Source: Halosimplex halophilum
GTDB lineage: Archaea; Halobacteriota; Halobacteria; Halobacteriales; Haloarculaceae
Direction: 5' to 3'
Length of the DNA stretch: 64,000 nucleotides
Assembly (NCBI RefSeq): GCF_004698125.1
Contig: NZ_ML214297.1
Location: forward strand, 434,001 to 498,000
In this document: piece by piece, positions 32,123 to 33,443 of the stretch
How the letters are laid out: each line of letters begins with the position of its first letter
Numbering within the stretch: position 1 is the first letter of the stretch
The notes under the pieces: generated by a model
Told to the model about the DNA's origin: nothing
What the model saw: only the letters and a program-made list of their open reading frames with translations
Databases searched by the model: none
Made by a program: the position numbers and the translations under genes

Positions 32123-32139
32123 TCCCTCGGCCCTTTCGG

Positions 32140-32605
32140 TGACTATCCGATGGCTTTCCGGATGGCGCGCGCTGTCGAGCGTGCCCGCCTTCTGGCGGGC
32201 CGCTCGAAATAGTCGTGCGAGGGATGAGCACCGCAGCTTGCGAGGAGCGCAAGAGGCTGGGGAGGTGTGAGGCCCGCTGCGGTGCTGTGCGGGGCGGTCT
32301 GCGGTGCCGTGCTGTGCGGTCCCTGGCGTCCGCGCGAACGTGTGAGCGCGGGCTCGGGAGAGCTTGCTCTCCCGGCGGACTGAACGGGCGAGGCGCGCTC
32401 GCGTTTATCCAGTCGTCTGAGCGGGCCACTATCCGAAGCGGCCTCTTGGGCCGCAAGGATATCCCGCTCAGCGACCGCGAGCGGGCCGAGGGCTTTCATC
32501 GCTTGCTGTCTCCTGCGGTCGAAACGACTGCTAGCGAGCGGGCCGAGGGCTTTCGATGCCTGCTGTCACCTGCGGTCGACGAGACCGCTAGAGCGGGTCG
32601 GATAA
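32140..32605. repeat. Non-coding hairpin-rich repeat element
   Basis: Between the acyl-CoA dehydrogenase and cysE lie about 660 bases without a convincing gene. They contain four strong inverted repeats: 32175-32207 (14-bp stem with one bulge, TTCT loop), 32228-32285 (10-bp outer stem GCACCGCAGC/GCTGCGGTGC with inner TTGCG/CGCAA), 32355-32374 (9-bp stem CGGGAGAGC) and 32418-32470 (8+4+6-bp nested stem). Two copies of a 57-bp tandem repeat follow at 32477-32590. I recall similar sequence, such as the GGGCCGAGGGCTTTC core, between genes in other haloarchaea. It may be a mobile palindromic repeat family or a structured RNA. Confidence 0.7.
32477..32590. repeat. 57-bp tandem repeat, two copies
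   Basis: Unit 1 is 32477-32533 and unit 2 is 32534-32590. The first 21 bases are identical (GCGAGCGGGCCGAGGGCTTT then C) and 48 of 57 positions agree by my alignment. A third partial start, GAGCGGGTCGG, follows at 32591. The period is a multiple of three, so spurious ORFs run through it. It forms the 3' part of the hairpin-rich element. Confidence 0.75.
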
Positions 32606-32786
32606 TTTAAGCCGCTGGCAGAGCGACACCGAAACATGGACTTCGGGCGCTCGCGCTCGTCCGGTCGCACGGCACACGACCAGCCGAACAGTGTTCGGCG
32701 CTGCCGTTGTTGAGCGCCCGCTCTTTCTCCGACGCATCGACCCGTTCGACCCACCGATCCCGACCGACCACGACACGGACCAGACA
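32602..32786 (+). promoter_or_regulatory. cysE promoter and structured 5' leader
   Basis: GATAATTTAAGCC (32601-32613) is a good TATA box. Transcription would begin near 32635, leaving a leader of about 150 nt, long for this genome. The leader can fold: GGGCGCTC (32645-32652) pairs with GAGCGCCC (32712-32719), enclosing a 17-nt near-perfect palindrome GCCGAACAGTGTTCGGC (32683-32699). It could be a regulatory RNA structure or a repressor operator. Its effect on cysE is inferred only from position. Confidence 0.5.
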
Positions 32787-33443
32787 ATGTTCGACAGACT
32801 CCGCGAAGACGTACGCACAGCCCGGGAGACCGACCCCGCCGCGAAAAGCAGCGCCGAGGTACTGCTCTACGCCGGCGTCCACGCCGTCTGGGCCTACCGG
32901 CTGGCCCACTGGCTGTGGACCCGCGAGTTCCACTTCACCGCCCGACTCCTCTCCCAGCTCACCCGGTTTTTCACAGGCGTAGAGATCCACCCCGGCGCGG
33001 ACCTGGGCCGTCGAGTCTTCGTCGACCACGGGATGGGCGTCGTCATCGGCGAGACGGCCGAGGTGGGCGACGACGTGGCGATGTACCACGGCGTCACGCT
33101 CGGCGGGGACGACCCGCGACCCGTCAAACGGCACCCGACCGTCGGCGACCGCGTGACGCTGGGCGCGAACGCGACGCTCGTGGGCGACATCACGGTCGGC
33201 GACGACGCGACCGTCGGCGCCGGCGCCGTCGTCGTCGAGGACGTGCCGCCCGGCGCGACCGTCGTCGGCAACCCCGCCGAGGTCGTCGACGGGGACGACG
33301 CCGGGACCGAACCGGAATCCGCGACGACACCGGAAGCCGCCGAAGGAAGCAGCGCCGAGCCCACTGCGGACGAACCGGCGGACGACGAGACGGCGACGCC
33401 CCCCGACCCACCGGCCTGCTGCGGCGCGGCCGGCGCGAGTTGA
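32787..33443 (+). CDS. cysE: Serine O-acetyltransferase (CysE/EpsC type)
   Basis: This enzyme transfers acetyl from acetyl-CoA to serine, the first step of cysteine synthesis. It has 218 residues. A helical N-terminal region (about 1-65) is followed by the left-handed beta-helix of hexapeptide repeats (about 70-165). [18 protein letters not shown] and YHGVTLGGD contain the catalytic His-Asp/His residues of the family. The C-terminal 50 residues are a Pro/Ala/Asp/Glu-rich tail ending [11 protein letters not shown] 32787 starts the usual FDRLREDV helix, whereas the upstream frame is leader. Confidence 0.92.

Follow-up and report, generated by a model that had tools for sequence, protein, structure and literature searches.

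The hairpins that fill the intergenic stretch upstream of cysE in Halosimplex halophilum form one repeat element, which we read as one copy from a superfamily of dispersed, palindromic and non-autonomous repeats that spans the class; the ends of these repeats would be recognised by a putative enzyme and their interiors swapped, and we put the probability of this reading at roughly one in two. The element lies in a window of 64,000 nucleotides, by which we mean the whole stretch of DNA analysed, and positions are given in window coordinates. The unit of the superfamily is a core of approximately 110 nt, the + strand of which forms a single long imperfect hairpin. The base of this hairpin is constant (TGAAAG, a GG/GG plus GA/GA loop, the stem P1 and GGGCTTTC), and its interior is drawn from at least two unrelated hairpin cassettes, here called type I and type II and assigned by short motifs.

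In the window, the intergenic stretch extends from the end of an acyl-CoA dehydrogenase gene (32122) to cysE (32787-33443, TIGR01172), and the repeat copy, from about 32164 to about 32590, is longer than the hairpin cluster alone. The region 32123-32640 folds with -286.8 kcal/mol, compared with -250.6 +/- 6.9 for dinucleotide shuffles (z = -5.2; none of 100 shuffles as good), and the four stems described in an earlier note on this DNA are all present: 32175-32207 (14 bp with one bulge and a TTCT loop), 32355-32374 (9 bp), 32417-32471 (nested) and 32227-32286 (11 bp). An open reading frame at 32215-32610 was rejected as a protein gene, as it has no Pfam match and its frame is not kept, the copies varying by inserts of many lengths.

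Read along the + strand, the copy begins with module A (32164-32228), composed of the left end GGCGCGCGCTG and a long hairpin with a swappable cassette tip, followed by GTGCGAGGGATGAG; the left end is common to 77 of 81 aligned copies from the same genome, among which a handful of alternative tip hairpins occur. Module B (32252-32265) is GAGGCTGGGGAGG, including GGCTGGGGAGG at 32255-32265, and its pattern GGYTGGGGAGGNNNGNGGC was counted at about 80 sites in the genome, nearly all of them immediately 5' of a core in the same orientation (reversed control: 8); modules A and B are tightly linked to the core in the Halosimplex genome. The alignment of copies further defines module C (32266-32321), a GCGGT/GCTGT-rich tract of variable length. 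Between CCTGGCG and GGACTG the window copy has a paired-hairpin insert (32329-32376) that is optional, since other copies lack it at the same position, and a cognate with different stems is found at another site (TCTTCGTGAAC...GACGG). The core itself (32377-32498), supported by a covariance model and by covariation, is the long imperfect type I hairpin GGACTGAA..GGGCTTTCA, with internal loops of conserved non-Watson-Crick oppositions: GG/GG and GA/GA near the base, a 3x1 loop, and, in most copies, GA/GA near the tip. It scores 103.9 bits against covariance model R1 (E 3.9e-21). The copy closes with a tandem tail (32477-32590) of two 57-bp repeats (D1, 84% identical), each opening with a copy of the core 3' end, GCGAGCGGGCCGAGGGCTTTC; among copies the tail comprises one to four units of about 57 bp.

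The genome containing the window (G000; 4.47 Mb in 7 contigs) holds about 80 copies on both strands, nearly all of them intergenic; one weakly scored open reading frame overlaps a copy (L062). A 28-base core pattern with up to three mismatches gave 82 sites (40 forward, 42 reverse) and none for its reversed control, the core covariance model gave 76 matches at E <= 0.001, and BLAST returned at least 76 matching pieces, with 40 of 183 candidates scored. Simple codon-usage gene calling around 81 copies placed 26 of them in the gene configuration ++, 22 in -+, 18 in +- and 11 in --, so that tandem genes run with the element direction 26:11 (p 0.02). A role as a terminator was rejected, with no enrichment between convergent genes (18 convergent, 22 divergent), and so was a tie to a single gene or regulon, since the neighbours differ among copies. 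Spacing along the chromosome is random (KS p 0.32), the gaps following an exponential, which also rejects regular spacing. All 81 copies are on the large contigs, with 0 found and 5.6 expected on the small ones (P = 0.004). No two copies are near-identical, the best pair reaching 94.7% over at least 250 bp.

Across copies, the core is mostly 101-131 nt long where long tip inserts are absent, and its terminal arms are TGAAAG/CTTTCA plus P1. The structure comprises 39 pairs in 37 diverse sequences, with 95.4% of the paired cells standard, a percentage biased toward the structure because this was derived from the same 37 sequences. Two-sided changes occur at 25 of the 39 pairs, across genera (0 of 500 shuffles), and the covariation score is 0.314, compared with 0.118 for shuffled alignments (0 of 500) and at most 0.053 for slid ones, so the structure is conserved beyond mere stability. 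The G-G oppositions G11-G124 and G12-G123 are invariant in 37 of 37 sequences. A tandem G-A opposition is found at the core base in 30 of the 37, and a second lies near the tip, where four sequences have G-C/C-G instead.

Both types show a strand asymmetry, although copies within a genome are related and the counted events are therefore not independent: the mispairs are G-U 20 to A-C 7 and G-G 26 to C-C 3 in type I, and G-U 47 to A-C 15 in type II, and, folded as RNA, the + strand is the stabler of the two in 123 of the 127 sequences of type I and in 40 of the 48 of type II. The excess of G-U over A-C and the better folding of the + strand point to this strand acting as a single strand, and the data fit RNA and single-stranded DNA alike. 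Searches of Rfam gave no match above the gathering score for the window element, the type II loci, the composites or the plasmid pNG500, and a known RNA family was accordingly rejected.

Many copies are orthologous across sister species with the fold retained. At two sites (L032 and L090) the element is found in every sister compared, with stems that have been replaced and mostly still pair; at a third (L046) it is found only in the genome containing the window, among the sisters compared. Orthologous copies that still fold also fit a host function, such as a structured RNA transcribed from the + strand, with a neighbour or on its own, that would bind a conserved protein at the GG/GG and GA/GA loops and act on mRNA stability or in trans. 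We consider this doubtful. The features specific to one strand (a large excess of G-U over A-C, G-A loops in tandem, a stabler + strand), the invariant G-G oppositions and the fold kept despite replaced stems are what such an RNA would leave, yet the copies occur in all gene orientations and have no consistent UTR position, no common promoter was seen, the copy number far exceeds that of known ncRNAs, and genera essentially without copies (g26 and g4) indicate that the element is dispensable.

At many loci the same ends, CCTGGYGGACTGAAAGGGCGAG / CGAGGGCTTTC, enclose the type II interior (...GACGCAAGCACCGCAG..hairpin..GAGGAGCGCAGCGAG...), which also covaries, with single pairs such as G-C 33 / U-A 14 and G-C 21 / A-U 20 (raw counts, with no shuffle baseline). 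At one site strain HArc-gm2 (G063; L239) has type II and the close relative G065 has type I, in flanks that are about 90-95% identical. At the acyl-CoA dehydrogenase-cysE site, type I is found in the window and in L307 and a type II-like interior in L310 (judged by eye), L308 retains only modules A-B and the tail (also by eye), and L311 and L312 are without the element. Sequence comparison thus identifies two unrelated covarying interiors with common ends that have been exchanged at orthologous sites twice, including the window locus. It should be noted that ordinary gene conversion could also bring about such an exchange. Two further states of this spacer were observed: L312 carries by eye an inserted gene resembling a PAS/histidine-kinase gene where other Halosimplex species have the repeat, and in L309 (sister species G090) module A is apparently fused to the distal half-core, as if by an internal deletion joining two hairpins.

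A purely mutational origin, by quasi-palindrome template switching and gene conversion between copies with neither a selected function nor an enzyme, would be expected to produce nested and exchanged hairpin tips, 57-bp tails in tandem and the replacement of whole stems. We hold it to be improbable, since template switching would perfect the mismatched loops, yet GG/GG and GA/GA persist across genera in all copies or in most of them, and two unrelated interiors share the same ends. The superfamily of non-autonomous repeats with swapped interiors could, more specifically and only tentatively, represent a new class of archaeal element, in which a putative enzyme would identify the folded single strand (RNA or single-stranded DNA) from its constant base and exchange or copy the interior hairpin between the shared ends, unrelated interiors alternating at a given site.

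In 8-kb loci drawn from many genera, cores separated by less than 600 bp are divergent in 13 of 13 pairs, with central spacers of 43-482 bp. The composite of HArc-gm2 has hairpin modules resembling A-B in its centre, and in another genus (L119, L120 and L160) A-B is inverted relative to the core, an arrangement that the composite form explains. From the divergent pairs and the A-B-like centre, the Halosimplex element is best read as the centre plus one of two cores; the fullest form has two cores facing outward from a central hairpin module, of which Halosimplex would keep one core, the central module and a tandem tail. In L240 (about 1700-1880) the centre of a composite repeat contains an unrelated insertion of approximately 110 bp, the inverted ends of which are ACGGTCGTGCGTGA...TCACGCACGACCGT. 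The apparently orthologous L192 lacks this insertion, which is probably a MITE and offers a natural marker of insertion. Such symmetrical divergent pairs, together with the intergenic placement and the confinement to large contigs, would be consistent with an element of DNA architecture, acting by cruciform extrusion or, as with BIMEs, through DNA binding by a chromosome-organising or topoisomerase-like protein. This seems unlikely in view of the random spacing, the absence from many haloarchaea, the occurrence on plasmids in other genera, and the strand-asymmetric tolerance of mismatches, which is unexpected for duplex binding.

The distribution extends across the class. A DNA search with a 149-nt consensus found matches in 98 of 146 family genomes, and the end pattern TGAAAGGG-N80..110-GGGCTTTC, the counts of which are lower bounds with types I and II mixed, was found in 231 of the 391 genomes sampled from the class, covering 66 of 86 genera, and its reversed controls gave counts near zero; the highest such counts are 172 (G063) and 143 (G065), and genera such as g26 and g4 have essentially none. 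Exact matches to an end pattern come from Halorussus, Halonotius, Haloparvum, Natronolimnohabitans, Halovenus, Natronomonas, Haladaptatus and Halomicrococcus, and plasmids with similar sequences are known from Haloarcula, Halorussus, Halovenus and Natrinema. The Haloarcula plasmid cores (L302 5001-5109, pHH126; L303 5001-5113, pNG500) adjoin a gene with the annotation SOSS complex subunit B family. In Haloarcula a conserved hairpin-rich region is seen 5' of the core, and in pHH126 the core touches a hypothetical gene whose annotation is possibly wrong. A phage origin was rejected, with no match in 50,697 phage records. The earlier note had likened the hairpins to palindromic repeat elements or a multi-stem RNA and, on the strength of a familiar-looking motif, GGGCCGAGGGCTTTC, had proposed a dispersed haloarchaeal family. 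The motif corresponds to the conserved 3' terminus of the core, and the copy number, the class-wide copies and the covariation support the proposal. Its suggestion that the family had not been properly named agrees with the lack of an Rfam match and with the literature, where no described family was found among open-licence papers, a scope within which absence is no proof.

A mobile-repeat reading has to account for several negative results: an autonomous relative, a transposase and a clean target-site duplication were all not found in the loci examined, and the best pair of copies does not look recent. With respect to a MITE, no transposon with these ends was present in the loci fetched, the right end is diffuse and there is no clean duplication; at the L311, L313 and G064 sites without the element, the spacers are too diverged for the junctions to be read, and a clean empty site with a duplication was not found. 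Across 60 genomes, the number of Y1 transposases (IS200-type, PF01797) does not correlate with how many repeats a genome carries (Spearman rho -0.08, p 0.54), and only 1 of 27 TnpB loci has a repeat within 1.5 kb, so that REP or PATE repeats driven by IS200/IS605 were rejected. Among 22 high-copy genomes, 8 lack any PF01797 match, and such matches are present in 14 of the 20 genomes that have no copy of the repeat; high-copy genomes without a Y1 transposase exclude the obvious known driver. In the reading as enzyme-recognised repeats, a putative host or mobile enzyme would instead recognise the folded ends, as RNA or single-stranded DNA, and copy or exchange cassettes between the constant ends; a slow spread would then have been followed by vertical inheritance of copies over long periods.

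Bacterial REP/BIME elements associated with RAYT are likewise dispersed intergenic hairpins, sometimes paired and divergent, with one acting strand. The haloarchaeal repeats share all of these features, but are much longer and modular and reach high copy numbers in genomes lacking a Y1 transposase. Nested hairpin repeats of mitochondria and cyanobacteria (double-hairpin elements and SDRs) likewise place hairpins within hairpins at fixed sites, but they are not known to share a core that has covarying stems and invariant non-Watson-Crick loops. The nearest described elements are the SMR-A of Haloquadratum walsbyi (HqIRS42, HqIRS43 and HqIRS55), which are about 110 bp long with prominent inverted terminal repeats, occur in tens of copies per genome, have no transposase gene and are mobilised in an unexplained manner (PMC3119063). 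Compared by description, our core shares the size of about 110, the inverted arms, the tens of copies, the haloarchaeal hosts and the missing transposase gene. Among SMR-A, identities above 95% between copies are common and insertion strongly favours near-terminal palindromes of IS605-type elements and PATEs (PMC3119063), whereas the Halosimplex copies diverge widely, with no pair above 94.7%, and lie between ordinary genes rather than in IS605/PATE targets. The family is further set apart from the published description of SMR-A by its two interiors and its modules, and it spans the whole class. The PATEs and IS200/IS605 elements of haloarchaea are also palindromic and present in many copies with no clear target duplication, PATEs being without inverted termini (PMC3119063); the repeats described here resemble them in the former respects, but have inverted termini and show no link to the number of Y1 transposases or to TnpB loci.

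The intergenic stretch had also been described in the earlier note as gene-free, which holds for the repeat part but not for 32636-32713 (+), between the repeat and cysE, where we find a conserved short open reading frame of 25 codons ending in a run of cysteines. Its start lies about 25-30 nt past a TATA-like TTTAAG (32606-32611), a distance matching the expectation for a leaderless haloarchaeal transcript, and the inverted repeat CGGGCGCTC/GAGCGCCCG (32644-32652 / 32712-32720) brackets it. An upstream short reading frame with at least two cysteines in its last seven codons is present at 19 of 30 haloarchaeal cysE loci from 9 genera (a raw count, with no random baseline), for example ...PCCCC, ...RRCCC and ...ACCCC, and is kept in species without the repeat. 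Judged by its sequence, this looks like a candidate cysteine-sensing leader peptide (attenuator) controlling cysE in archaea, a form of control for which no archaeal report was found in open-licence papers.

The repeat family thus appears to be a widespread element of archaeal genomes that was not described before, and it explains many of the long "empty" intergenic regions in haloarchaea. As interchangeable interiors occur between constant ends at orthologous sites, the mechanism of exchange can be put to a direct test in tractable hosts, for instance Haloarcula hispanica, in which the plasmid pHH126 carries a copy.
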